DNA of 35,039 bases from Thraustochytrium sp. TN22 (taxonomy: Eukaryota > Sar > Bigyra > Thraustochytrida > Thraustochytriidae): NCBI GenBank assembly GCA_013306675.1, contig JABLUY010000318.1, positions 1-35,039 of the forward strand, written 5' to 3'. The notes below the pieces were generated by a model. The model saw only the letters and a list, made by a program, of their open reading frames with translations, did no database searches and was not told the DNA's origin. This document shows positions 336 to 34,766 of this stretch, in pieces (within the stretch, counting starts at the first letter, position 1; the number at the start of each line of letters is the position of its first letter). The position numbers were made by a program, and so were the translations under genes.

Positions 336-3083
336 ATGAGGGCCGGCACGCGCGGCAGCGCGGCGCAGAGCAGGGCCAGGGCCGCGCAGCAGTTCGAGGA
401 TCAAGACGAAGAGCAGCAGCAGCGCGACGTGACGGCGTGGCACAGCCAGGGGTATGCGAGCATGGCGCCGCCGGCCGTGGCGCGCGGCGGCAAGGGCGGC
501 GTGCAGGTCAAGCTGGAGGACAAGGCTGCCGAGGAGCGCGCGCTGACGCAGCGCGAGAAGAACCGCGAGGCCGTGCGCAATTGCCGCAAGCGCAAGAAGG
601 AGCATGCCATGCAGCTCAAGGAGCGCATCGACGAGCTCGTGGAGGAGAACGCCAAGCTGCGACTGGAGCTGCAGCTGGGCACGGACCAGCGCAATGCGGC
701 GGCCGCTGCCGCTGGCGGCGGCGGCGGCGGCGGCGGCGGGCTCGGCGTGGTGGCGCTGGGCGAGGGCGCCAACGCGAACGGCGCCACCGCGAACGGCGAT
801 GAAGCGGGCGGGGGCCGGCGGCGGCGGTCGTCGTCGACGTACCAGCACGGCGGCCCCGGGGCGGCCCCCGCTGGCGTGGGCCTGGGCGAGGAGCAGGAGC
901 TGATCCGCGAGATGCAGGACCTGGTGCGCAAGGCGCAGGAGGAGAGCGGCGGGCAACCGTACGTGGTGACGCCCAAGAGCCGACGCACGGGCACGCCCAA
1001 GTCAGAAAGCGAGGCGGCGCTGCGGCGGCGCGTGCAGGTGTACATGGAGCGGCACCAAGACCACGGGCGCGATCGGCAAAAGGCGATCGGCTTCATTCTG
1101 GGCCGGCTGCAGCGCCTCGTGGAGCCCGAGATCCTCACCAAGCAGTACCTGCAAATGATGACGGCCGAGGCGCGCCCCGGGTCGGAGGAGGACGCCATCA
1201 CCCGCAGCCTCATGGCGGAGCTCAAGCTCACGCAGGAGCAGCAGCAGGAGTTCAACAAGCGCACGCGCTACGCGAAGCGGCTGCGCACGGAGCTGGATTG
1301 CGCCTTTGAGAAGATGGAGAGCATCGTGAAGCGCTGTCGCCGCAACAAGAAGGTGGGCGATTCGCTCAACGAGCTCACGACCATCCTCAAGCCGGAGCAG
1401 TTCGCGCGCTTCGTGGTCTGGGTGCACAGCAACCCGGCGTGCAAGGACATTCTCGACGAGCTATGGGGCAAGCTTCTGGGCAAGTGCGACCTGCAAATCA
1501 ACAGCGAGATCTTCAGCTCGCCGGCGGCGGTGGATCAGATCAAGCGCTTCCAGGAGAACAGTGCGGCGCTGGCCATACACCTCTTCTCGGTTGCCGACCC
1601 GCGCGCGAGAGAGAAAATTGCGCGCCTCTGCGTGCACCCGGAGGTTGTGCTGGTGGACGCCAACAACAACGTGGACAAGCGCGGCGTGCGCGAGGTGACG
1701 CGGTACATGACCTTTGTGACCAAGGCCTTTGACACGCAGTCCTGCGAGAAGACGCGCTCGCTGCGCGCCTTCGATGTCGAGGAGCGCTCCATCATCTCGG
1801 ACCAGCAGGACGACAAGGTCACCGGCACCTGGCGGCTCTCGGGCGTCTACATTGGCCGCCTGCGCCCGCGCCGCAACAACCGCACGTCTGGCCCACTCAG
1901 CGAGTCGCCCGGCACGCCCTTTGGCTTCAACTCCGCCTCCGTGGCCGTGCCGGCCAACGGCTTCGCGCTGCCGTCCGCCGTCATGCCGCCGCCGCTCGGG
2001 CTCGCCTCGTCCGCGTCCTCGCCGCAGCCCACGCCACGCGGCCTGCTGGCCTCGCCACTCCAGACCTCGCCCTCGGTCTCTTCGACGCCCAGCGGCGCGC
2101 CCGAGCCGCTCCTCACCAAGGAGGAGCAAAAGGCGCGCACCGTCTCCTTCAACGTCATCGTCGAGTTCAGCTTTGCGGACCCCACCAAGCCAGAGCTCAT
2201 CACCGAGATGATCATATCCTGGGACGCCATGAGCCTCGTCGGCCAGCTCGGCCTGCTCAAGGAGCCGGTCAAGGGCGTGCTGCCGCCGCCCAACATGCAG
2301 CCGCCAGCACCGCCCCTGGAGCCCGCGCCGGCAGCCGCGTCCGCGCCGGCGGCGGCAGCAGATCCTGCCCAGCCGGCCGAGGCCCTGGTCGACGCGCAGC
2401 TCGGCCAGCCGACTCAGCAGCCGGAGGATGTCGACAAGGCTGCCGAGCCCGCCAACCCGGCTGCGGACGCGGCGCTGCCGCAGGAAGACCCGCTCGCGGA
2501 TCTCGCCCTGGACGATTTGAGCGCCAGCGCGGCCGAAGAAGCCCGTGCCGCGGCGCTGCGGCGGCGCAACGCCACGGCGCTCGCGCGCCTCTTCCAGACG
2601 GAGCTGCCGGCGGAGCGCGAGCGCCTCGCCGAGGACATTCTCGACCCCAAGTGCGTCTTCGATGACATCCACATGGGCGTCAAGTACAAGGGGGTCGCCG
2701 CCTGCCTGACGTACCTGCGGCGGCTTCGCCGCGCCTTTCCCAAGTTCGCCATCAGCGCCACGGTTGTGAGCGAGGAGGCGGCCTTTCCGCCGCGCTCCAG
2801 CCTCGTCGTGCGCACAAGGCGCGCCAGCAGTGCCGAGAGCGACGCTTCCTCGCGCTCCTCGCGCTCCTCGTCCATCCCACTCAACGATAAGGTACTCGAG
2901 GTCAAATGGAACGTCAACGGTTTCTACGGCGGCGCGCTCGTCAAGGAGCCCCAGCCCTGCGAGTTTGAAGGTCGCGTCTTCGTCACCACCAACGCCAATT
3001 CCTCCAAGATCGCCTGCGCCAAGCTCGACATTGTGGCGCAGGACCTCATGTTCCAGCTTGGCGTCCTTCGCAAGCCCATGTAA
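336..3083 (+). CDS. bZIP transcription factor with two C-terminal NTF2/SnoaL-like domains
   Basis: This 915-residue protein should bind DNA as a dimer in the nucleus. The basic region and zipper lie at residues about 73-114. The signature N-x2-A-V-x2-C-R is present (N76, C83, R84), followed by a basic KRKK run, leucines at heptad spacing (L94, L101, L108) and the usual asparagine in an 'a' position (N105). A poly-Ala/poly-Gly run follows (about 121-136). Residues about 226-400 are charged and helical, with an LKPEQFARFVVWV motif seen in algal/stramenopile-type bZIPs (from memory). Residues about 405-645 and 747-915 look like two copies of one alpha+beta fold: both begin L-x-LF...R and end QLG-(L/V)-L-(K/R)-(E/K)-P. 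A Pro/Ser/Ala-rich linker separates them. ATG 336 is the first start in frame; ATG 462 is an alternative just before the bZIP. No intron is apparent. The target genes are unknown. Confidence 0.88.
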   Translation: MRAGTRGSAAQSRARAAQQFEDQDEEQQQRDVTAWHSQGYASMAPPAVARGGKGGVQVKLEDKAAEERALTQREKNREAVRNCRKRKKEHAMQLKERIDELVEENAKLRLELQLGTDQRNAAAAAAGGGGGGGGGLGVVALGEGANANGATANGDEAGGGRRRRSSSTYQHGGPGAAPAGVGLGEEQELIREMQDLVRKAQEESGGQPYVVTPKSRRTGTPKSESEAALRRRVQVYMERHQDHGRDRQKAIGFILGRLQRLVEPEILTKQYLQMMTAEARPGSEEDAITRSLMAELKLTQEQQQEFNKRTRYAKRLRTELDCAFEKMESIVKRCRRNKKVGDSLNELTTILKPEQFARFVVWVHSNPACKDILDELWGKLLGKCDLQINSEIFSSPAAVDQIKRFQENSAALAIHLFSVADPRAREKIARLCVHPEVVLVDANNNVDKRGVREVTRYMTFVTKAFDTQSCEKTRSLRAFDVEERSIISDQQDDKVTGTWRLSGVYIGRLRPRRNNRTSGPLSESPGTPFGFNSASVAVPANGFALPSAVMPPPLGLASSASSPQPTPRGLLASPLQTSPSVSSTPSGAPEPLLTKEEQKARTVSFNVIVEFSFADPTKPELITEMIISWDAMSLVGQLGLLKEPVKGVLPPPNMQPPAPPLEPAPAAASAPAAAADPAQPAEALVDAQLGQPTQQPEDVDKAAEPANPAADAALPQEDPLADLALDDLSASAAEEARAAALRRRNATALARLFQTELPAERERLAEDILDPKCVFDDIHMGVKYKGVAACLTYLRRLRRAFPKFAISATVVSEEAAFPPRSSLVVRTRRASSAESDASSRSSRSSSIPLNDKVLEVKWNVNGFYGGALVKEPQPCEFEGRVFVTTNANSSKIACAKLDIVAQDLMFQLGVLRKPM

Positions 3084-4322
3084 CAGATTTGTGTGTGTGC
3101 TCTTTGATGCAGCGTTGCGTGCTTCTCAGCTTGCAGTCAAGCTTTTCAGCTTGCAGGCAAGCCTTTCAGCTTGCAGTCAAGCTGAGCTTTGGTCCTCCTC
3201 GGCGGCAACAAGTGAAGCGATAGATTGTCGAAGATGATGATGTAACGCGCGCGTGAGCACTGGCACCCAAAGATATATCAATGTTGTTGTTATTCCCGAC
3301 CGCACCGCACTTGCTGACAATCTTCTCGCACGCTGAAACTAGCCTTACGCCTGAGCCGAGGCTCCGGGAAGTCCAAGGTGACGGACGGATGGTGAATACG
3401 TGCCACTGGCTCGGACTGGGACGCCCTTGTAGTAGGGTGGTGAGTACCACCGCCGCCCCGCCCCCCCCCCCGCCCCCGGGCCGCCGCTACCGCCGCTACC
3501 GCCGCCGCGTCCGCCAGCCGCCGCCGCCTATCTACCTCTTGCCCGCCTCCCATAAAAAGAGGAACTAAGCCCGTGCTAGCTCTAGTAGCCAGGCCTAGGA
3601 GCGACTTGGAGAGCGATCGTCCCTCGACCTGCGGTTTCCGAACCACCAGAGATTCGTTGGGACCCCCCAGCACCGTCCATGACGCGCGCGCAGTTCGGCG
3701 TTTCTCCGTATTGACTGATGTGAGCTCCGCCCGTCCGTGACGGTCCGTCTTTCACCTGGCTCTCAGGTTGCTCGCCACGTCCGCCGCTCACGCTGCTTGT
3801 TGACCGCCTGCGGCACCTGGTCATGTCATGATCATGAGCTTTGGAAAGGGTGGGTCGACCAACAAAGAGCTTCCGAAAGTTGGTGGTATTGCGTCCGGAT
3901 TCCAGAGCCGGTTGGTGTGGTGTCGGGCATCCAGCCGCGTGACCGTCCTTCAAGTTGAGATGCCGCCGACTGTTGGCTGCTTCGCGGTTTGTACGTGTAA
4001 CACGCCAAGCGTCTTGGACTGGCGTGCGGCACAACCACGTTCGGTCGGAAGCGATGTGGTTGTCAAGCTGCCGTCGCTGTTCGGGGCGGTTCAAGTCGTC
4101 GGAGCCGCGGACAGGGCCAACGGCTTGCTCTGGGGCAGGTGCACATGGTGGTCACAAGAATCGCTCCGCACCGCACAGCACTGCCTCCGGCCGCGAGTCC
4201 GGCAGAGAGCACGACCAGATTCATGAAGGTGCGCCGCGCCCATCAGGTTGGCGCGGCGCGACGCAGGGCGCGACGCGAGGCGCACTCTCACGAGGCGCGA
4301 GCGCGACAGGCACGGCGAGACA
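3084..4322. other. Spacer between bZIP and channel genes, with short tandem repeats
   Basis: No convincing gene is seen. Just after the bZIP stop, three copies of a 20-bp unit (cagcttgcagtcaagctttt) lie at 3127-3146, 3147-3166 and 3167-3186, presumably in the 3' untranslated region. A C-rich run and a CCGCTA-type triplet repeat occupy about 3455-3530. Reading frames at 3582-4247 on both strands lack recognisable domains and show mixed base composition at third positions, so I treat them as non-coding. The last part should be the channel gene's promoter and leader. Confidence 0.6.
3127..3186. repeat. Three tandem copies of a 20-bp unit
   Basis: The unit cagcttgcagtcaagctttt is repeated three times with one or two changes per copy, 44 bases after the bZIP stop codon. 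The unit contains the near-palindrome agcttgcagtcaagct, so each copy could form a small hairpin in the transcript. Confidence 0.85.
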
Positions 4323-6845
4323 ATGCCAGAGGCAACCGCCTCGCCACCGCTGCCCGGTGCAAGCACTGGGTCTTCAACAACGAGAGGCAGGGAGACAGGA
4401 ATTGAAGGGAGGAGAACAATACGGGAAGTCACGGTGCCGCGTCTTGGACTCAGCCTGCGCGATCGCATCTCGGCCATCAAGCCGCGCATGATGCTGCAGA
4501 ATACTGGCAAGACTCCGATGTCGTTCTCACGAGTCGCCCTGGAGCTCGGCAACCTGACAGTGAATGCGCACGCGAGAAAGGGCACGGAGGATGACGATGC
4601 GAAGCTGTGGAATCAGGTGAAGCGGTCGTCCATCGTCTCGACGTCAGCCATGGTGCCGCGCGTCATGTCACAAAGCTTGCCAGTAGGCAGCCATCGGCAC
4701 AGGTCGGGACATCGGAGCTCGCAGATCACTCCGGTGGCAGGTCTCGCCAACCATGTGCTAGCTGGACCTCGCAAAGACGCAGCGCTCGCGTCGGATGCCG
4801 GGTCTCTCGGCTCACACGGGTCACAGGCCGAGGAGGAGTCGGGGCCCAAGAAGGCGAGCGCCGTGGCGCGCTTCCGCATCGTCACGGAGCGTGATGCGGC
4901 CGAGTACCGCTGGGTGATGGACTGGGACAACCCATTCCGGCGCATGTGGGACGTCGGCGTCGTTCTGGCGGTCATCTACCTGTGTTTCACCGTGCCGCTG
5001 CAGATCGCCTTCACGGAGATGGAGTTCAACAAGACCTTTAGCACCTTCTTGGACGTGCTCTTCTGGATCGACATTTGCTTGAACTTCCGCACGGGCTTCA
5101 TTCACCATGGCGAGCATGTGCGCAATCCGCGCAAGATTGCGGCCCACTACCTGGAGTCCTGGTTCTTTATCGACCTGGTGGCCTCGGTCCCGTTGGAGCT
5201 CTTCTTTTCAGGCGCCTCCAAGACCACACGCAAAAGCCTCAAGATCCTCAAGTGGCTCAAATTCCCCAAGCTGCTCCGCGTGGGCCGCATCCTCAAGTAC
5301 CTCAAGCAGCTCGTCAAGTACTACCAGGTCTTCGTGCTGGTGTCCATCTCGGGCCTTCTCACGCACCTTTTGGGTTGTTTTTGGCTAAGCATCGTGGAGC
5401 CCTGCGTGTTCCTGGACGAGGGGGAAGATTTGCCGGAGACACCGCTGGCCATGTACGACTGCTCGCAGACCACCATGTGGCGGCTTTATCTGCTTTCTCT
5501 GCGGGTCTCGGCGTCCATGATGTTCCTCCTCACGGACCCCTTCATCTTTGTGGCGCACGTGGACCGCGGCATCTGGCTCGAGAGCCAGAGCGCGTCGCGC
5601 AGGCTCGAGGAGGTAGCCCTCAACATGGACTTTGGCTATGGCAGCGAGGCGTGGAGCTCGTGGTCGCTCCTGAGCGGCGAGCGCCGCTCCCAGACGCTCC
5701 TGCTGACCTTCTTCTCCATGGCCGGCATGGTGATTGGGTTTTTGATCTCCGCCAGCTTCCTCGCGGAGCTGGTCGTCTTTGCGACGAACCGGATGTCAAC
5801 CTATTACGCGTTCTACACGCGCGTGGACCGCATCAAGCGCGAGATGAGGTCGCTCCACCTGTCCGAGGACCTGCAGTACCGCGTCTCGCGCTACTACGAC
5901 TACCTGTGGATCAACCAGCGCATGGGGCTCAACGATGAAGCCGAGGGTCTGCTGCGGGACCCGGACCTCTCGCTACCGCTGCGCAAGGAGATTACCCTCA
6001 TGGTGCATGCCCCGCTGCTCACGCAGGTGAGTCTCTTCGAGGGGTGCTCCATGGAATGCATCTTCCGTCTCGCCTCGTGTTTGACGACGCACGTCTTCCT
6101 GCCGGGTGACGTTGTCTTCTCCAAAGGCGATCTGGCGCGCGAGCTCTACCTGATCCGCAAAGGCGTCATCGCAGTGCGCTTCGGTGAAGTCGACAATCGG
6201 AACCTGGAGCGCCTCTCCGAGGTGGATGAGGAGAACATCGCATCACAGCGCTACAAGATCTCCGAGGCCACCAAGGAGGCGATCAATTCCGAGTACTCAG
6301 ACGACGAGACGCTTCAGGAGTCCGCCATGGTACGGCTCATGGGTCCAGGGTCCTTCTTTGGCGAGATCGCTCTGCTCACCTTGCTGCCGCGCTCCTGCAC
6401 CGTGCTGTCCAAGACCGTATCGGAGCTCAACAAGCTGTCCAAGACGAACTTCGAACGCTGCATGCTCGACTTTCCCGAGCTCAGCGACGATATTGCCGAC
6501 GAGGTGCTCCGTCTCTACCCGGGTCTGCGTGAGCACCTCTCGGGTTATTTGGCGAGCGTTGCTGCGCGCCGCGAGACCCCGCAATCGCCTCGCTTCACAG
6601 ATGACGATGCCCCGCGTGCCGTCACGCACGCCGAGGTACAGCACATCGTTGAGGAGGCTGTCGATCGACTCGCGCTTGCCATTGGGGGCGATGACGTCAA
6701 GGCACGCATGCAGCAGTCGCGCCGCCTTCAGCGCGGCAGCGTCGCCGACGTCCTCCTCCCTGTCATGCAGGCTGACCGACGCGCTTCGGAAGTCGAGTCC
6801 TTTCGTAAGCGTCACGGAGAGCCTCCGAGCCCAGCCTCTGGATGA
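4323..6845 (+). CDS. Voltage-gated-type cation channel with cyclic-nucleotide-binding domain
   Basis: This 840-residue membrane protein resembles the EAG/HCN/CNG class. The N-terminus (1-205) is polar. Six segments follow: S1 about 209-231, S2, S3, an S4 with regularly spaced Lys/Arg (about 303-335), S5 about 338-360 and S6 about 458-485. A C-linker comes next, then a cyclic-nucleotide-binding domain at about 565-732. The phosphate-binding cassette keeps F679-G-E681 and R690 (PRSCTV), so ligand binding is plausible. A polar insert sits inside that domain (about 622-660). The pore loop is odd: in YLLSLRVSASMMFLLTDP (389-406) the residues where K+ channels have GYG read TDP (404-406), so ion selectivity cannot be predicted. 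ATG 4323 is the first ATG; upstream in-frame codons have only TTG. The family is certain; potassium conduction is not. Confidence 0.88.
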   Translation: MPEATASPPLPGASTGSSTTRGRETGIEGRRTIREVTVPRLGLSLRDRISAIKPRMMLQNTGKTPMSFSRVALELGNLTVNAHARKGTEDDDAKLWNQVKRSSIVSTSAMVPRVMSQSLPVGSHRHRSGHRSSQITPVAGLANHVLAGPRKDAALASDAGSLGSHGSQAEEESGPKKASAVARFRIVTERDAAEYRWVMDWDNPFRRMWDVGVVLAVIYLCFTVPLQIAFTEMEFNKTFSTFLDVLFWIDICLNFRTGFIHHGEHVRNPRKIAAHYLESWFFIDLVASVPLELFFSGASKTTRKSLKILKWLKFPKLLRVGRILKYLKQLVKYYQVFVLVSISGLLTHLLGCFWLSIVEPCVFLDEGEDLPETPLAMYDCSQTTMWRLYLLSLRVSASMMFLLTDPFIFVAHVDRGIWLESQSASRRLEEVALNMDFGYGSEAWSSWSLLSGERRSQTLLLTFFSMAGMVIGFLISASFLAELVVFATNRMSTYYAFYTRVDRIKREMRSLHLSEDLQYRVSRYYDYLWINQRMGLNDEAEGLLRDPDLSLPLRKEITLMVHAPLLTQVSLFEGCSMECIFRLASCLTTHVFLPGDVVFSKGDLARELYLIRKGVIAVRFGEVDNRNLERLSEVDEENIASQRYKISEATKEAINSEYSDDETLQESAMVRLMGPGSFFGEIALLTLLPRSCTVLSKTVSELNKLSKTNFERCMLDFPELSDDIADEVLRLYPGLREHLSGYLASVAARRETPQSPRFTDDDAPRAVTHAEVQHIVEEAVDRLALAIGGDDVKARMQQSRRLQRGSVADVLLPVMQADRRASEVESFRKRHGEPPSPASG

Positions 6846-25644: not shown

Positions 25645-26716
25645 CAGCGTGCACCCGGCAGACGTTAATGAAGCAGGCTGGAAAAGGAGCTTGCCGGTGC
25701 GTCAGGGACGCAGAGGCTGTGGTACAATGTCCACTACGCCTCTCGTTGTGGGCGCCGTGCAGCCGATGAACGACCACGACGGCGGCGCTAGCTGGTGTCA
25801 TCGCCATTGACTGCAACATTACCAACAAGGTTTTGAGCTTATCGTCGACACGTGCAGGTCTGGGAAACTTTCGTGGCGCGGCTTGCCAATGGCTTGTCCA
25901 TGGCTTGCCCATGGCTTGCCCATGGCTTGCCCATGGCTTGCCCATGGCTTGCCCATGGCTTGCCCATGGCTTGCCCATGGCTTGCCCATGGCTTGCCCAT
26001 GGCTTGCCCATGGCTTGCCCATGGCTTGCCCATGGCTTGCCCATGGCTTGCCCATGGCTTGCCCATGGCTTGCCCATGGCTTGCCCATGGCTTGCCCATG
26101 GCTTGCCCATGGCTTGCCCATGGCTTGCCCATGGCTTGCCCATGGCTTGCCCATGGCTTGCCCATGGCTTGCCCATGGCTTGCCCATGGCTTGCCCATGG
26201 CTTGCCCATGGCTTGCCCATGGCTTGCCCATGGCTTGCCCATGGCTTGCCCATGGCTTGGCATGACTCGCTTTTTTTTCGACGATTCGTTTGACCCTTTC
26301 GCCAAACAACATCGGCGAACCGGGCATTCCAGCTCTGGCACACATGTGCTCCAGCAGAGTGCGGATCGTGGAACCGGGCTGGCCGACCACCATCGCCTTG
26401 GCACGCTCCCCGCAATGTCATGCCATGTCATGAAACAGATGAAAAGAGGGCGTCCGTTGATCAACTTCAAAAAGGCTCGCCCTCCGAGAGTGTTGCAAGT
26501 AAATACGCCACTCCGGCGTCGTCAACATGCACCGGCCTCTCCCCGGCATCAGCAGAGGTGGAGAAGGACAGCCCGTACCCTTGAGCGACGGTAAAGCCTC
26601 CCCCCAGTTGGAGGATTCTAGCCTGCCAGAGAGGTCGCGCACGCGAGCTAAGCTCGATTTGACGCCTGGAGCTGTAAATGTTCAAATCATCTCGTTGTCG
26701 TAAGAACTGAAATTAG
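25645..26716. other. Spacer containing the 11-bp minisatellite, downstream of the receptor gene
   Basis: Apart from the minisatellite (25881-26260) and a short T-run (26271-26278), nothing is recognised. It includes the receptor gene's 3' untranslated region. The long frames on both strands here are products of the repeat. Confidence 0.6.
25881..26260. repeat. 11-bp minisatellite (atggcttgccc), about 34 copies
   Basis: The unit atggcttgccc repeats almost without change for about 380 bases; the first few copies vary (gccaatggcttgtcc). Each junction creates ccatgg. Since three units make 33 bases with no stop, all six frames are open, which yields artefactual PWASHGQAMGK- or WLAHGLPMACP-type proteins. 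Confidence 0.97.
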
Positions 26717-29700
26717 CTAACGGTCGGCCTCCTCGGCAAAGGAAGCAGCTCCATTCATCTTGAGAACGTGCACCGTGCCTGAGCGGTCAGTAGCAACAAT
26801 GGTGGCGCCCCGACGGACGCAAACGCTGATGGCATGGTCCGTCGTGAAGCCCACCCTGCCATCGCTAGGCAAAACCTGAACTCTGTTTGCGACTTCAACG
26901 GGGAGAGTGCGATGCCCAGCGCCGAGACGCAACGACGCGCTTTGCGCGTCCATTTGCGAGTAGGTGTTCATGTCCCAGTGCAGGAGTTCGCCGCGGACGT
27001 CCTTGCTGATGATGATGCTGCCGGCCAACGCCACGCCGAGGACGGCCGCTGTGTGCCCCTCGAGCACGTGCAGGTGGTCGCCGGTGCGAGCGTCCCACAC
27101 GCGCACCGTGAAGTCTGGCATTGAAGAAGAGAACGGGTTGCCAGCACCAGAGACGATCCGGTCGCCGTCCAAAGCCACACTCATTACCCAGTTCGTATGC
27201 CCCTTGAGCACGTGCAAGTGGTCTCCGGAGTGAGCGTCCCACACGCGCGCCGTGTTGTCTCTCGACCCAGACACGATCCGGTCCCCATGTAAAGCCACGC
27301 TGTTGACGAACGACGTGTGTCCCTCGAGCACGTGCAACGGGTCACCAGTGAGAGCGTCCCACACGCGCACAGTGTTGTCGTGCGACCCAAACACGATCCA
27401 ATTCCCTTCTGAAGCCACGCTGCTGACAGCAGACGTGTGCCCCTCGAGCACGTGCAACAGGTCGCCAGTGAGAGCGTCCCACACGCGGACCGTAGTGTCA
27501 AACGACCCAGACACGATCCGGTCCTCGTTCAACGCCACGCTGGAGACGGCGCCCGTGTGCCCCTCGAGCACGTGCAGCTGGTCGGCCGTGTGGGCGTCCC
27601 ACACGCGCACCGTGTTGTCGTGAGACCCAGACACGATCCGGTCGCTGTCCAAAGCTACGGTTCTGACCCAGTCCGTGTGCCCCTCGAGCGCATGCAGCAG
27701 GTCGCCGATGTGAGCGTCCCACACACGCATCGTCTTGTCGTCAGACCCAGACACGATGCGGTCGCCGTCCAAAGCCACGCTGTTGACGAAGGACGTGTGC
27801 CCCTCAAGCACGCGCCGCTGGTCGCCGGTGTGAGCGTCCCACACGCGCACTGTCTTGTCCAAAGACCCAGACACGATCCGGTCGCCGTCCAAGGCCACGC
27901 TGACAACGTATGATGTGTGCCCCTCGAGCACGTGCAGCTGGTCGCCGGTGAGAGCGTCCCACACGCGCACCATGTTGTCGCCACACCCAGACACGATCCG
28001 GTCGCCGTGCAAAGCCACGCCCATGACGGCAGACGTATGCCCACTGAGCACGTGCAGCTGGTCGCCGGTGAGAGCGTCCCACACGCACGCCGTGTTGTCT
28101 TGAGACCCAGACACGATCCGGTCGCCGTCCAAAGCCACATCGTAGACGAGATCAGTGTGCCCCTCGAGCACGTGCAGCTGGTCGCCGGTGTGAGCGTCCC
28201 ACAGGCGCACCGTGTTGTCGCCAGCACCAGACACGATCCGGTCGCCGTCCAAAGCCACGCTGTGGACGCTATCCGTGTGCCCCTCGAGCACAAGCAGCTG
28301 GTCGCCGGTGCGAGCGTCCCACGCGCGCACCGTATAGTCTTGTGCCCCAGACACGATCCGGTCGCCGTCCAAAGCCACAGTCAAGACGGCAGAGGTGTGT
28401 CCCTCGAGCACGTGCAGCTGCTCGCCGGTGTAAGCGTCCCACACGCGCACCGTCCGGTCTCTCGACCCAGACACGAGCCGGTCGCCGCGCAGCGCCACGT
28501 CTGTGACGGTATCCGTGTGACCCGTGACCACCTGCAGGAGCGCATCGCGCGGCGGAGCGAGACACTGCTTGACTGGGCAGAGCCACGGTCTTTGCGGCGG
28601 ATCGAGGGTGCGTCGCAGGGGGTGCTTGGGGTCGGCAATGCGCGCGAGGACCTGGCTGGCGAGCTGGTCTGGGTCGGTGGTAATGATGAGCATAACTTTG
28701 CTGAGAAGTCGGGGCGTGTCGCTCCTGGTGTCGAGCTTGGCCCGGTGAGCGTCGCGAAGAACGCCGCCGATGAAGGCATGGCGCTCCGGGGGCGACGACT
28801 TGACCGAAACGACATTGTGGACCCAGGCAGAGTTGTCGAGCAGCTCGAGGGCGTCGTCTTGACGCTCGCTCATGCAGAGGTGGTACACCAGGTGGCGAAG
28901 AGCAAAAAAGCCGCTGCGGGACTGCATGAGGATCTCCGCCAAGAGTCCGTGGCCAATCTTCGCGTCCACGAAGAAGTCGGCATCCTCGTTGTGCGTGAGC
29001 CAGTCTGCCATGCTCTTGTGCAGCAGCCCGACCGAGTCGTCCACGCCACGGTACAGGAGGTTGCGGCCCATGTCGATGAGGTCCTCAGTCGCACCAGATG
29101 ACGTAGTCTCGAGCGCGGCTGCAAGGATGGCCTTGGATACAGGTTCGCGGGCAGCGACGATGGGGGCGAGCAGGCGGTCGTAGCGAGCCTTGCCGTGCAG
29201 CACTTCGTCACGGAGCCGAGCAAAGTACTTCCTGAACATGCCGCCGAGGCCCACTGGGACGAAGTCGCCGTCGAGGATGTCTTGACGGCGCAACAGGGCC
29301 CCCGCTTCCAAGTGCAGCTGACGACGGCGCCGCACAAAGGTGTCGTGCAGGAAGCTGGCCCAGAGGAAGAGGCCCTCGGACCGCGTCGCGAGCTCGTCGG
29401 CAACGGCGGCGACATCCTCCGGCACGACGTCACGGGGGAGCGAGCGTCTGAGGTGGATGCGCATGTCCTCCATGTTCTGCTCGTCGTCGACGCGGAGGAC
29501 CTTGGACTTGAAGTTCGGCCCCGTCTCCGGGATGTCCGCCTCGGGCCGCGTGCTGGCCAAAAGGCAGAGCCAGGGCGGCAGCTCCGACCATCTCTGCATG
29601 ATGATCTGCTCGATGAGGTCCTGACGGTCGGTACACTCGTCCAGCGCGTCGAGGACTACCACGAGGCGCGGACGGTCCTTGGCGTCCAGCTTTGTGGACG

Positions 29701-32700
29701 GGCTCAGGAGGACCGCGTCGAAGACGTCGGTCAAGCGGTCCAGCTCGTCGCTGCTCCGGGAGATGAGCTCCTCCTCGAGCAGCGCCGCGTAGCCCGGCAC
29801 GGACTCGCAGAGCTGCCACGCGACGCTCCGGAGAGCGGCGGCCGCCGAGCTGGAGGACGCAAAATCGTGGCGGAAAAAGTGCATCGCGCCGATGGGCACC
29901 GGCGTCCGGTTCTTGTTACTGCGACGCCACATCCGAGACAGCCAGGAGTCGCGGTGCCTCGTCGCAACGGGGCCATCGCCGAAGGCCCCGCCGCGCCGGC
30001 AGATCTCCGCGAGAACGGTGCTCTTGCCGATGCCGCCGTCGCCGCGCAAGACGGCCACGCGCTCCTCGCCCTTGGCGTACCAGTCCGCAACGAAGTCGAG
30101 CATCCACTTGCGCGTGCCGGGCGAGAAGGCCTTCGCCTTGTGCTGCGCCCAGCGCGCAGAGTCCACAGGGCCCAGCCGCGCGCTGATCTCGCGCATGCCG
30201 GCGTGGCGGTCGTCCTCGGCGTCCTTACGCTGCTTGATACGTTCCGCGAGGTCAGCGATGGCGGCCTTTTGCACGCCAGGGTCAGCATCGCGCAAGCTGG
30301 TGAGGTCGACCAGGGGCGTGACCCCAAGATTGTAGCGGTGCGAGTAGCTTGACTTCTTGAGCGTGCTCGGGTCGAGGGCGGCGATGACCATCCGGTTGGC
30401 GCGACGATCGCTCGCGTAGGTCAGCTCCCTGTAGCAGTTGTCCTCGCGCGTGCCCTGGGAGACCTTGTCCAGGTACCTCTCGGTGGCCAGCACGAGAAAG
30501 ACCGCAGAGCGGTCGATGCCCTTGGCCATGGCCTCATTCATGTTGGCGCGCATCTGCTCCTCGTCGAGCCAGACCCTGAGGTCGTGGTCTTTCTCCAGCG
30601 ACGCGGCGAGCGCCTTGGCGTCGTCGTGGACGCCCCACTCGTGGGACAGAAAGACGTCCCAGTCTTGGTCGTCGCTGTGGCCTTGGAGCTTCTTCTTGAC
30701 CGCCGCCGCGACCTCGGCGCCGCCGACCTTGTCTGCTTCGCAGAAATCGAGGTAGAGCTCGTTGGCCAAAAAGAAGCTGAGCTTGCCGGTCCAGGCCTTT
30801 TGCGCCTTCATGCTCGGGTCCACGACAATGGGCATGAGGGCATCCGGTCGAAGCGTGCACGCCGTCTCGAAGGCCTTGTTGATACCCTTTTGAGCCTCCG
30901 CCTGCATGTCTTTGCTCACAAGCACCAGCACCAGCATCGCATCGAAGCCATCTGCGAGCTTGGCCACAACATCTGCCTCGCTCCCGTCTGGAACCTCCAC
31001 GTCGGTCTGGAGGTGGGGCTGCAGCTTTTTCCGCAGCTTCTTCGCGTGGTCGAGGTCTGTCGGTGCGTGCACGATGACGACCGTGAGGTTCGCAGGCAAG
31101 ACGACGAGGATTTCCGGCGCTGGCTCGATGACTGCTCGAGTGCCGCCACCGTCGTCCGTGCGCTTTGGCTTTGCCTCGTCGCGGCCTGGGTCGTCACGGT
31201 GTGAGGCCTCGGCCTGGGCAGCGCCTGCTTGAAGCTCTGGTTCGTTGGGTTCGCCCTGAGGCGGCACAGCCAGCGGCCCGTCGTAGGGGTCCAACGTGAA
31301 GGTCTCCAGATCTTGGAGCCCTGCGTAGCGCGGCTCTGTGCGCGTGGTCAGCACGAGACACAGCCAGGATGGCAGCTCGTACCAGCCCTCTACGATCACC
31401 TTTTGGATAAAGTCCTTGACGTCAGGGCTCCCGCATGCATCCAGCGCGTCGAGGAGGACGATCTGACGCTCGAGCGGCGGGTCCACCATGCTCGCCGGGC
31501 GCGTCACGACCGTGCCAAAGAGGTCTGCGAGGCGGACGTTGGGCTCCTCCAGCGACCGAAGCGTCTGATCGAGCGCGTCGTCGAAGCCGGGCACCGCCTG
31601 GCTCAGCTGCCACGCGATGCTCCGGATCGCGTCCGCTGCGGTGGTCGGCTCGTCGCGCCGGAAAAAGTGCGCCGCCGCGACGGGCAGCCGCTTCCGCAGC
31701 TCCACCAAAACGGTGGTTTTGCCTGCGCCCTCCTCGCCCTGCACCACGAGGACGCGCTCCCCGCTCGCATACCACTCCTCGACGGCATCAAAGAAGTCCT
31801 GCCGCGAGCCCTTGGCGAATGCAGACATTTCGCGCGGCGAGGACGATGAGCCCACAGGCGGCCGAAGCCGCGCAAAGAGCTCACGATTGCCCTGTGTGAG
31901 GCCGCCCTCGTCGTTGCTTGCCACGAGGCGCTGCAGGATGGCATCAGCGAGCCTTTTCACGGCGGCCTCGTTGACGACGGTCAGGTCGACGACGGGGGTC
32001 GTCATGCTGACGCTAAACTCGAAGATGCCCCCGCCGTGGGCCGCGATGTGGAGCATGGCAGGCTCGAGGGCGGCGACCACCATGGCATCGGCCCGGTGCT
32101 CGGCGCCGTACCGAAGCTCCATGCCGGTGATGCCGGACGAAGCTCCAGCGTCCATGTAGCTCGCGGTCGCCAGGATGAGGAAGACCTTGGACCTGTCCAC
32201 GCCCTCCGTCTTGGGGTTGCCGTCGGGAAGCGCTTCGTCGAGCCAGACGCGGAGACCGTGTTCGCGCTCGAGCTGGATTGCCAGAGCTTTGGCCTTTTTC
32301 GTGTCGTCGGCGGCGTAGGAGACGAAGACGTCCCAGTCAGAGCCGGACACGCCGTTCCGCATCCGCAGCACCGCCTCGACGACCTCTGCGGCGTCGACCT
32401 GGGCAGGGCGGCAAAAGTTCAGGTAGGCTTCGTTGCCCATGGCGACGCTGAGAGGCCCGGTCCACGCGCGTTGCACCAGCATGCGGTCCTCGACCACAAC
32501 GGGCAGCAGCGCCATGGGCACCGTCTCACGCGCTCTCGCAAAGGCCGCGTGCTGCGAGGCCTCCGCCAGCATGGCCGCGCTCACCACGACCGGCACCACG
32601 AGCTTGCTCGCTGAAGTCTCGATGGCGCTCGCGAGCACGCCCTCGGGTCCGCTCGTCGTGGTGATCTTGGCGCGCACATGCGGCTGCAGCTTCTTGCGAA

Positions 32701-32809
32701 GCTGCAGCGCCACCTTGCGGTCGCTGGCCGCGTGCACGATGACGACCACGAGGTCGGCGTCGCCCTGGACAGCGCGACCCGCAGCCGGCCGCGACGCCTT
32801 GGTCCCCAT
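26717..32809 (-). CDS. Giant NLR-type receptor: (TIR-like, TIR, NACHT) twice, then WD40 repeats
   Basis: A 2030-residue STAND-type signalling receptor. Module 1: TIR-like region about 19-150, TIR about 159-300 (WDVFVSY at 159; RVWLDE; candidate catalytic Glu231 in GMELRYG), NACHT with Walker A GEEGAGKTT (358-366) and Walker B IVLLDALDAC (450-459). After a Glu/Pro-rich linker (about 515-570), module 2 repeats the order: TIR-like about 574-712, TIR about 717-860 (WDVFLSH; WLDEEQ; candidate Glu795 in NCYREL), NACHT with Walker A GDGGIGKST (923-931) and Walker B VVVLDALDEC. A helical/winged-helix type region (about 1100-1425, with LLHKSMADWL) follows only module 2. Twelve WD40 repeats start at 1430, then a degenerate blade and a conserved tail. 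ATG 32809 gives MGTKAS, a myristoylation-type start; upstream there is only GTG. By family logic, ligand binding by WD40 would trigger NACHT oligomerisation and TIR signalling. Ligand and outcome are unknown. Confidence 0.92.
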   Translation of the reverse strand: MGTKASRPAAGRAVQGDADLVVVIVHAASDRKVALQLRKKLQPHVRAKITTTSGPEGVLASAIETSASKLVVPVVVSAAMLAEASQHAAFARARETVPMALLPVVVEDRMLVQRAWTGPLSVAMGNEAYLNFCRPAQVDAAEVVEAVLRMRNGVSGSDWDVFVSYAADDTKKAKALAIQLEREHGLRVWLDEALPDGNPKTEGVDRSKVFLILATASYMDAGASSGITGMELRYGAEHRADAMVVAALEPAMLHIAAHGGGIFEFSVSMTTPVVDLTVVNEAAVKRLADAILQRLVASNDEGGLTQGNRELFARLRPPVGSSSSPREMSAFAKGSRQDFFDAVEEWYASGERVLVVQGEEGAGKTTVLVELRKRLPVAAAHFFRRDEPTTAADAIRSIAWQLSQAVPGFDDALDQTLRSLEEPNVRLADLFGTVVTRPASMVDPPLERQIVLLDALDACGSPDVKDFIQKVIVEGWYELPSWLCLVLTTRTEPRYAGLQDLETFTLDPYDGPLAVPPQGEPNEPELQAGAAQAEASHRDDPGRDEAKPKRTDDGGGTRAVIEPAPEILVVLPANLTVVIVHAPTDLDHAKKLRKKLQPHLQTDVEVPDGSEADVVAKLADGFDAMLVLVLVSKDMQAEAQKGINKAFETACTLRPDALMPIVVDPSMKAQKAWTGKLSFFLANELYLDFCEADKVGGAEVAAAVKKKLQGHSDDQDWDVFLSHEWGVHDDAKALAASLEKDHDLRVWLDEEQMRANMNEAMAKGIDRSAVFLVLATERYLDKVSQGTREDNCYRELTYASDRRANRMVIAALDPSTLKKSSYSHRYNLGVTPLVDLTSLRDADPGVQKAAIADLAERIKQRKDAEDDRHAGMREISARLGPVDSARWAQHKAKAFSPGTRKWMLDFVADWYAKGEERVAVLRGDGGIGKSTVLAEICRRGGAFGDGPVATRHRDSWLSRMWRRSNKNRTPVPIGAMHFFRHDFASSSSAAAALRSVAWQLCESVPGYAALLEEELISRSSDELDRLTDVFDAVLLSPSTKLDAKDRPRLVVVLDALDECTDRQDLIEQIIMQRWSELPPWLCLLASTRPEADIPETGPNFKSKVLRVDDEQNMEDMRIHLRRSLPRDVVPEDVAAVADELATRSEGLFLWASFLHDTFVRRRRQLHLEAGALLRRQDILDGDFVPVGLGGMFRKYFARLRDEVLHGKARYDRLLAPIVAAREPVSKAILAAALETTSSGATEDLIDMGRNLLYRGVDDSVGLLHKSMADWLTHNEDADFFVDAKIGHGLLAEILMQSRSGFFALRHLVYHLCMSERQDDALELLDNSAWVHNVVSVKSSPPERHAFIGGVLRDAHRAKLDTRSDTPRLLSKVMLIITTDPDQLASQVLARIADPKHPLRRTLDPPQRPWLCPVKQCLAPPRDALLQVVTGHTDTVTDVALRGDRLVSGSRDRTVRVWDAYTGEQLHVLEGHTSAVLTVALDGDRIVSGAQDYTVRAWDARTGDQLLVLEGHTDSVHSVALDGDRIVSGAGDNTVRLWDAHTGDQLHVLEGHTDLVYDVALDGDRIVSGSQDNTACVWDALTGDQLHVLSGHTSAVMGVALHGDRIVSGCGDNMVRVWDALTGDQLHVLEGHTSYVVSVALDGDRIVSGSLDKTVRVWDAHTGDQRRVLEGHTSFVNSVALDGDRIVSGSDDKTMRVWDAHIGDLLHALEGHTDWVRTVALDSDRIVSGSHDNTVRVWDAHTADQLHVLEGHTGAVSSVALNEDRIVSGSFDTTVRVWDALTGDLLHVLEGHTSAVSSVASEGNWIVFGSHDNTVRVWDALTGDPLHVLEGHTSFVNSVALHGDRIVSGSRDNTARVWDAHSGDHLHVLKGHTNWVMSVALDGDRIVSGAGNPFSSSMPDFTVRVWDARTGDHLHVLEGHTAAVLGVALAGSIIISKDVRGELLHWDMNTYSQMDAQSASLRLGAGHRTLPVEVANRVQVLPSDGRVGFTTDHAISVCVRRGATIVATDRSGTVHVLKMNGAASFAEEADR
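27059..28522 (-). repeat. Twelve coding tandem repeats of 120 bp (WD40 array)
   Basis: Within the receptor gene, 1464 bases consist of twelve 40-codon repeats, the twelfth with an 8-codon insertion (GNPFSSSMPD region). Each encodes GHT-x2-V-x2-VAL-x-GDRIVSG-x2-D-x-TVRVWDA-x-TGDQLHVLE with few changes. DNA identity between units is very high, so this is a coding minisatellite able to gain, lose or exchange units. A degenerate thirteenth repeat starts at 27058. Confidence 0.95.
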
Positions 32810-34766
32810 CTCCTTGCGCACGCCGCCGCGCCTGCGCGCGAGCCTCGGCGCGGATGAGCGCCGCTAGTGGGCGCGTACCGCCGGAGCGCGAGAGCGCGAC
32901 CACGGCCAGGGCGAGCGTCTCACCGGCAACCCCCCGCGCGCGCGAGCGAGCCCGAGGGTCGAGCCTGGTCGCGCGCGTGAATGCCGCGTGGCGATCTGTT
33001 TCCTCTCTGCCGGAGTCTCCGGGCTTGAACTCGAGGGCCCGCTCTGGAGTAGCAATGAGAGCAGGCCCGCCGCCGAGGGAAGCAGCGCACACACGGGCGA
33101 CTTGCCATTGCAGTCCTGCCGCGCCGGTGAATGTACGGGTCGTACCAAGGGCAGGCCCGCAAGCGTTAGGACTTCACAGCGGTCGCTCTCTCGATGCCAC
33201 GGCAAGATCCTGCGTGGCAAGATTGGCGCCGCGAGAGCTTTGTGAGAGAGGTCGGGCACGGGCCACGGCGCGGAAAGCCGCGAGGGAAAGCTCAAGGACC
33301 ACAAGCCAGTGCTGAAGTGCACACGTTCAAGGCCGAGCCGAGCGAGACACTTGCAGCGTTGCGTGCAGTGGACACGATCCGAGTGGTGGCATCGAAATCG
33401 ACGCGCGCAGAGAGTCTTCAAGAGCCACACCTACAGTAGGTTAGCTAACAGCGCAGCACCGCACCGCGAATTGGCTCCCGGCCGGGTGAAGATCGCCTTG
33501 TGCGCGAGGAGGCGTGAGGCGATCGACTGCTACTCGCGCCGGCGCAAAGTTTTTCTGCACACAGCCGCACTGAGCTCCGGCTGGGCCAGCATGAGCTCGA
33601 CCGCACCCTAGAGCTAGGCGGCCACGGTGGGCTTTTTTTTTTCAGATCATGAGGCGAGCGCTCTCTTTGGCCGGCAGAGCTCCCTCGCACGGCGCAAGCA
33701 ATCCCTTCTCCACATGAGTTTGCACCGCTCCAGCCTGCACAAGTCACGGTGGCAAACGCGACATGTACCTGAAAGGGGGTCCTCGGATTCAGGGAGTTTT
33801 TACGGCTGCATGGAGTTGGGCACCAGGAGGGGCAACAGTCGAGACCACCCGAGGCGCGCAGAATTGAGTGGACGTACCCGAGTCGTCGTTGCAAGGATAG
33901 ACGGCCGGCGCGCCGTGCTCGGCGTGGTGCGCTCGAATGAGCAAATGCTGCACGGCTCGGACGTATCGTCGCAGGCGACTCTGCATCACGGAGACTTCTA
34001 GCCCGCAGGCGCCACCACCAACGGCAGGCGCGTTCGCCGTCCGCTGATCGGCGGGCCGCGCGGAAACGCGGCAGCGTCAAACGCCCAACGCCGTGCTCCT
34101 CGTCGTCAATGCGTTGCGCGATTCGGGCGGCTTCCGCTGTCTCCGCTACGAGGTCCTTGGCGCCAACTCTTGCGCCACCGCAGCCACGCTTGAGCCTTCT
34201 CGGGAGCTCTCTCACTGCCGCGTCCAGGGCCGGCCATGCAGATGACTGCCGAGGTCGCCGAGATCATCTCGGTCGAGGCCAGGTGTAATGGCGAGCTCGC
34301 TGGCAGCAACTGCAAGGGACTACGCGCCGCCATGCACGGCGCCGCAGCTTTGAGAGGCCATGGCGATGTCACCCGGCCCTGCAGCTTGTCCTCGTCAAAG
34401 ATGTACCTGATGTCGAACTGCGCGAGGGAGTGCGCAGCACGCGGGGGTGGTGGTCGCGCTCGTCGTGACGAGAAGAGCGTCGCCAGTGCGTACCCGTCCT
34501 GGGCGACCGGCTCGGCGACGGTCCGAAGGCGAGCACTCCCGACGCCAGCGCGGTAGCGGCGCCTAGCTGGGGCGCGTGAGCGTGGAAATGGCCAGGAACA
34601 GCGCAGCAGCGGCAGGCTCGCGGCAGGCTGCGCCTAGCGCTCGCAAATGTGCCCCCAAAAGACAAGACTCCTCTTAGCTGGGCGATTGCCTACGCATGCA
34701 CGACGCTTGCCTGCATGCCAGAGTTCGATTCGCGCCTGCAGCTCCACATTTCCAAATGCTTACAAA
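32810..34766. other. Spacer between two receptor paralogues
   Basis: No intact gene is supported. It should contain the promoter of the receptor gene (32810 upward) and the 3' untranslated region of the upstream paralogue. A T-run lies at 33632-33642, and ttagctaa occurs at 33440-33447. A possible decayed coding stretch is annotated at 34100-34560. Confidence 0.5.
34100..34560 (-). pseudogene. Possible remnant of a decayed gene (low support)
   Basis: Minus-strand fragments in different frames look protein-like: VAQDGYALATLFSSR and LAQFDIRYIFDEDKLQG at about 34400-34530, then LDAAVRELPRRLKR and AKDLVAETAEAARIAQRIDD at about 34100-34230. Stops and frame changes separate them. No family is recognised and chance is a real alternative. 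If genuine, it would be a broken gene between the two receptors. Confidence 0.2.

Follow-up and report, generated by a model that had tools for sequence, protein, structure and literature searches.

Two TIR-TIR-NACHT modules and a single WD40 array in one reading frame of Thraustochytrium sp. TN22

The contig JABLUY010000318.1 of Thraustochytrium sp. TN22 (assembly GCA_013306675.1), a stretch of 35,039 nucleotides hereafter called the window, carries a minus-strand gene in which the order TIR-TIR-NACHT occurs twice ahead of one WD40 array. Does this gene encode a single receptor, and what would its additional TIR-TIR-NACHT part contribute? Sequence comparison and structural modeling showed a predicted complete Apaf-1-like receptor (TIR-TIR-nucleotide-binding domain [NBD]-winged helix/helices-WD40) with an incomplete TIR-TIR-NBD head upstream in the same frame. 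We favor, at a probability of roughly 55%, an Apaf-1-like receptor driven by the second module, in which the first module would be a fused, hydrolysis-deficient extra head serving as a structural half-subunit.

Architecture of the reading frame

The minus-strand frame at 26717-32821 comprised 2034 open codons with its first ATG at codon 5 (position 32809); a GTG-initiated reading would be 4 codons longer than the ATG-initiated one of 2030. The domains followed the order TIR-TIR-NBD, a 61-residue linker, TIR-TIR-NBD-winged helix/helical region, and 12-13 WD40 repeats, located as follows (pLDDT, predicted local distance difference test; ORF, open reading frame):

26717..32809, minus strand: whole gene from ATG to stop, 2030 codons (ORF reading and coding score along the frame)
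32357..32764, minus strand: TIRa1, divergent TIR fold (TIR_2 at 4.7e-4 alone; profile match; AlphaFold2)
31892..32344, minus strand: TIRb1, SARM1-type TIR that keeps the Glu (TGMELRYG)
31292..31864, minus strand: NBD1, NACHT/NPHP3_N nucleotide-binding domain (Pfam NPHP3_N)
31109..31291, minus strand: linker of 61 residues, predicted disordered (pLDDT under 50)
30680..31108, minus strand: TIRa2, divergent TIR fold (TIR_2 at 4e-4 alone; profile comparison; model)
30167..30679, minus strand: TIRb2, SARM1-type TIR with Glu (CYRELTYAS)
29492..30154, minus strand: NBD2, NACHT/NPHP3_N with full motifs (GDGGIGKS, VLDALDE; Pfam)
28532..29491, minus strand: winged helix and helical region
26939..28522, minus strand: WD40 array with 13 repeat starts, 12 strong and the last degenerate (Pfam WD40, tandem-repeat scan)

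The twofold order expected by the original prediction was borne out by paired landmarks at residues 41/596 (LRKKLQPH), 162/720 (DWDVF), 191/749 (RVWLDE), 362/927 (P-loops), 456/1056 (Walker B) and 483/1081 (LPxWLCL), by Pfam TIR_2 matches on all four TIR segments (E 4.7e-4, 6.7e-9, 4e-4 and 2.5e-13), and by NPHP3_N matches on both NBDs (E 1e-11 in NBD1, 8.9e-19 in NBD2). Scanned alone, the first TIR of each pair scored under Pfam's cut-off for TIR_2. The two modules shared 41-42% identity, and the TANC1-like winged helix and the WD40 repeats were found by Pfam after the second NBD only, in agreement with the earlier placement of the helical part. Pfam and the models also agreed with the earlier reading of one long polypeptide holding four TIR-fold regions, two NACHT-type NBDs and one WD40 array, and we infer a single transcript for the whole frame. 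With a NACHT-type NBD carrying Walker A and B motifs and a winged-helix/helical region behind it, as in NLR-type STAND proteins, the gene most likely encodes one receptor of this type, for which ligand-triggered oligomerization is predicted.

The divergent TIRa matched TIRb in profile comparison (98%, E 1.8e-13), and TIRa1, which lacks the conserved Glu at the catalytic column, was modeled by AlphaFold2 with a pLDDT of about 87-97 per ten-residue block. TIRa gave no match under E 0.99 against PDB sequences, and structural re-ranking of matches covered domains other than TIRa. TIRb aligned with the tir-1/SARM1 NADase at E 2.9e-6, and the Glu of HKELKCAFEH, which we take to be the catalytic Glu of SARM1-type TIR NADases, fell on a Glu kept in 10 of 11 TIRb rows. 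Both TIRb1, shortened in its BB-loop/helix B part, and TIRb2 are thereby predicted to combine a TIR fold with the helix C Glu that marks SARM1-type NADases.

The WD40 array contained 12 Pfam WD40 stretches and, in the DNA, a tandem repeat with a period of 120 and 11.6 copies. Columns 4, 5, 7 and 21 were among the eight most variable in all nine usable paralogues from the same genome, as was column 23 in eight of them; L004 and L013 were left out of this vote because their near-identical repeats give ties. In the window, pairwise differences amounted to 313 nonsynonymous and 20 synonymous changes in the variable columns, which had been chosen from the paralogues alone, and to 318 and 297, respectively, in the framework columns. 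Repeat identity inside single genes ranged from 0.59 to 0.98 (12 genes). The repeats of L013 were 98% alike and varied in columns 7 and 40 only, and those of L004 were 97% alike and varied in columns 5, 7 and 23 only, a likeness that points to recent repeat amplification or homogenization.

Just downstream of the gene, at positions 25880-26259 of the window, an 11-base unit (GGCTTGCCCAT) is repeated 34.5 times with 99% matches; the stretch is open in several frames, so that the ORFs there are probably spurious. The neighboring genes (an FHA kinase, a bZIP protein and a cyclic-nucleotide-type channel), together with the Cpn60/TCP1 and proteasome families, indicated that the genome is eukaryotic.

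The first module and the proposed mechanism

NBD1 kept an intact P-loop (GEEGAGKT), and its Walker B motif read LLDALDA, ending in Ala where each of the 19 other rows of the alignment has Glu; the same Ala was present in two damaged copies of the tandem gene, on contigs C379 and C432. Module 1 contained neither a winged helix nor a helical region. NBD1 thus probably retains ATP binding with poor hydrolysis and, because it has no winged helix, would not be able to switch alone. Two NTPases of equal standing, as proposed originally, are unlikely for the same two reasons, namely the missing winged-helix/helical part and the change of Glu to Ala in Walker B. An arrangement of two live switches with two outputs, in which both NBDs cycle nucleotide and each TIR pair sends its own signal under a shared WD40 sensor, would be in keeping with the intact P-loops of both NBDs, the Glu of TIRb1 and the purifying selection on NBD1, but we regard it as quite unlikely since that part is missing and the Glu that ends Walker B has been lost in all three copies.

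Selection on NBD1 was estimated from the ratio of nonsynonymous (dN) to synonymous (dS) rates since its split from C379. The dN/dS of 0.18 over 133 codons was similar to that of the second module (0.19 for TIRa2, 0.19 for TIRb2, 0.20 for NBD2 and 0.22 for part of the helical region), which indicates that NBD1 evolved as a protein under purifying selection.

From this domain content we infer a mechanism in which the WD40 propellers, with their fast-changing variable positions, would recognize a ligand; NBD2 would then exchange nucleotide, and the protein would oligomerize. The SARM1-type TIRb1 and TIRb2 would be brought together to cleave NAD+ and thereby trigger cell death or a signal, and module 1 would act as a covalently attached, built-in partner that increases how many TIR domains are present locally, with no second sensor-driven switch. 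More tentatively, module 1 could be a pseudo-ATPase fused in cis as an obligate partner; its ATP-holding, non-hydrolyzing NBD and live TIR pair would place two TIR heads per sensor in the ring. If true, a driver NLR and a hydrolysis-dead helper would form a built-in heterodimer that evolved in a non-plant eukaryote, as part of a repertoire in which WD40 sensors diversify like fungal ones.

Origin of the tandem order and continuity of the frame

Contig C379 matched the window at 87% DNA identity across 2783 columns, from the middle of NBD1 through the linker and module 2 to the point where the contig ends. A four-base insertion where its linker begins changes the frame, and its TIRb2 has two in-frame gaps, one of 18 bases and one of 33 bases that deletes the Glu. 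Contig C432 aligned from TIRb1 to the beginning of TIRb2 across 1917 columns (78% DNA identity); its P-loop is damaged and its frame changes several times. The tandem order is common to these three loci, among which only the window locus was seen intact and the other two were truncated and frameshifted. Because the same NBD1-linker-TIRa2 junction occurs on both other contigs at these identities, the arrangement is neither an assembly artifact nor recent. A chimera of two paralogues, to which a large repeat-bearing family in a 453-contig assembly might lend itself, is hardly credible in the face of this shared junction.

The claim of an old duplication was thus upheld as to the age of the arrangement, whereas an origin within the gene was unsupported, since the best trees placed module 1 beside the paralogue L016, or left it unresolved, and did not pair it with module 2. 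Constraining the two modules together cost 1.02 log units and was not rejected by the approximately unbiased test (p-AU 0.24), compared with a p-AU of 0.36 for module 1 with L016; a recent internal duplication was not supported. Fusion of two family members fits the sequences as well as internal duplication does, and we propose that the gene arose by fusion or tandem duplication inside an already large TIR-NACHT-WD40 family. On contig C397, two similar family members (36543-39668 and 45563-48694) lie on the same strand about 9 kb apart, a kind of tandem pair that could feed gene fusion.

The linker contained no in-frame stop, and its region lacked ATG in all sense frames of the window and C379, where 2.7 would be expected (C432 has one). 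Its codon-measure score of 0.147 was matched by scores as low in 9 of 70 coding stretches and as high in 2 of 122 overlapping intergenic stretches. This coding-like score, together with the lack of ATG, argues against two genes or transcripts, one for a TIR-TIR-NBD protein and another for the full receptor, between which the linker would be open in frame by chance; in addition, the next ATG would cut TIRa2. Such a division, which would suit a fast-changing linker and the frame changes there in both damaged copies, appears quite unlikely. Among loci of conserved families, 7 of 12 for Cpn60/TCP1 and 13 of 15 for the proteasome matched nearly full length in one frame; the genome is intron-poor, yet not intron-free. 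The modules could be joined even if the linker held an intron.

Several observations weigh against the favored reading. The linker was the fastest-changing part (dN/dS 0.51, dS 1.06, 55 codons), and the reading frame shifts in its region in both damaged copies, as the only change in C379 and alongside several more elsewhere in C432. An intron in the linker would equally account for these frame changes; the linker may contain an intron, or the two modules may be transcribed separately. Linker gaps were multiples of three or not depending on the aligner, and gap phase was dropped as evidence because the BLAST and MAFFT views disagreed. In the sensor, dN (0.82) was below dS (1.28) in the variable columns, and positive selection was therefore not shown. 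Plain Foldseek gave module 1 mainly weak matches to multi-domain AAA+ proteins, and the Glu retained in TIRb1 suggests that this module may be catalytically live. Of the 33 columns that do not vary among the other 19 rows, module 1 kept 28, and the loss of five, where the ten other rows printed had lost 0-3, makes partial decay possible. That loss, a branch length of 1.05 for module 1 versus 0.094 for module 2, and the broken state of the other two tandem copies would be consistent with module 1 being a passenger, a decaying fused remnant of a neighboring paralogue without a role. We consider this unlikely given that the dN/dS of NBD1, which covers the time since the C379 split and not the present, resembles that of the second module, and that the frame of module 1 is fully open and well folded in the AlphaFold2 model.

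The gene family and known systems

The genome (37,891,866 bases in 453 contigs, the window being one of them) contained at least 40 further matches to the window protein and, at E<=0.01, at least 49 NPHP3_N and 126 TIR_2 matches; in the family search, scores were obtained for 23 of the 313 first-look candidates. Among the at least 49 NPHP3_N matches listed, no other double-module gene occurred besides the damaged copies, and the window gene was the only open frame with two such domains. L006 and L015, which are near-identical, as well as L020 and L007 were rejected as double-module genes, their long frames holding one module each. Of 18 NBD-bearing paralogues with a single module, 5 had both TIRa and TIRb and the others one TIR in the same frame, and TIR-TIR-NACHT-WD40 is an ordinary class in this genome. 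With its variable WD40 sensors, this family within 37.9 Mb is a candidate innate recognition repertoire of a microbial eukaryote. Three further loci displayed other TIR arrangements. L022 (contig C61) had two TIR matches in overlapping different frames ahead of one NBD-WD40 frame, reflecting either a frameshift or an intron. L030 (contig C288:26000-30400, minus strand) had a TIR near either end of one frame and is possibly a TIR-Roc-COR-TIR protein, its middle being judged by eye as a Roc-COR GTPase. Contig C160, at about 1247-4627, had four TIR_2 matches with identical scores, a 1043-base spacing and one TGA inside each, evidently a tandem array of TIR units.

Beyond this genome, 480 pattern matches in the genome_contigs collection yielded 4 distant bacterial loci, and no relative was found among 600 pattern matches in the viral_contigs collection. 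One bacterial TIR-STAND-WD40 locus, L024 of Oligosphaera ethanolica, shares TIR_2 and WD40 by Pfam and gave a 26% tblastn match across TIRb2 to the helical region, but it is distant and has a single module in a 1476-aa frame. Nearer to home, the genome's own paralogues of the TIR-TIR-NACHT-WD40 and TIR-NACHT-WD40 types share the domains, the helical region and the WD40 type, whereas they have one module only and keep the Walker B Glu. Fungal NWD/HNWD receptors of the HET-E type, described in PMC4986451 as NACHT-WD40 proteins with highly similar repeats varying at few positions, resemble our gene in this repeat pattern and differ in having HET or another effector, one NACHT and demonstrated positive selection. 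TEP1, NWD1 and NWD2 (DUF4062-NACHT-WD40) and Apaf-1 differ by their single head; PMC13174449 describes TEP1 and NWD1 as single-headed and TEP1 as an active NADase. At E<=1, TIR_2 was the sole Pfam match of the four TIR segments, with DUF4062, itself TIR-like, not among the matches.

The closest parallel in plan comes from plants, which, according to PMC3782705 and PMC2175511, have TIR-NBS-TIR-NBS-LRR (TNTNL; NBS, nucleotide-binding site; LRR, leucine-rich repeat) and TIR-TIR-NBS-LRR (TTNL) receptors. The original view that such an architecture had not been described was therefore too strong, although no description of a doubled NACHT/WD40 plan was found in the open-licence literature (two-NACHT or TIR-NACHT-WD40; protist, stramenopile, labyrinthulomycete). 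A review states that RPP2A, a TNTNL, works as a receptor gene in its own right as a functional protein, and that tandem heads of this kind recall dimerization (PMC3782705); the likeness of our gene to RPP2A is one of published architecture, not of sequence comparison. The shared features are two TIR-NBD heads before a single repeat sensor, if the single transcript holds here, and the existence of TIR-TIR-NBD-repeat relatives. The plant proteins use NB-ARC and LRR, whereas NACHT/NPHP3_N and WD40 with two TIRs per head are used here, and this replacement suggests a receptor that works like a plant TNTNL without being a member of that group. Tandem NLR heads, previously known as oddities of plant genomes, would thus recur in another eukaryote, here built from NACHT and WD40 parts, and a first NBD conserved despite a catalytic-residue change suggests that a hydrolysis-poor helper fused to a receptor is a repeatable solution. 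The gene also offers a single-gene system for testing the numbers of TIR domains and of switching ATPases that an NLR assembly requires. Collectively, it is most likely a NACHT/WD40 counterpart of the plant TNTNL receptors.

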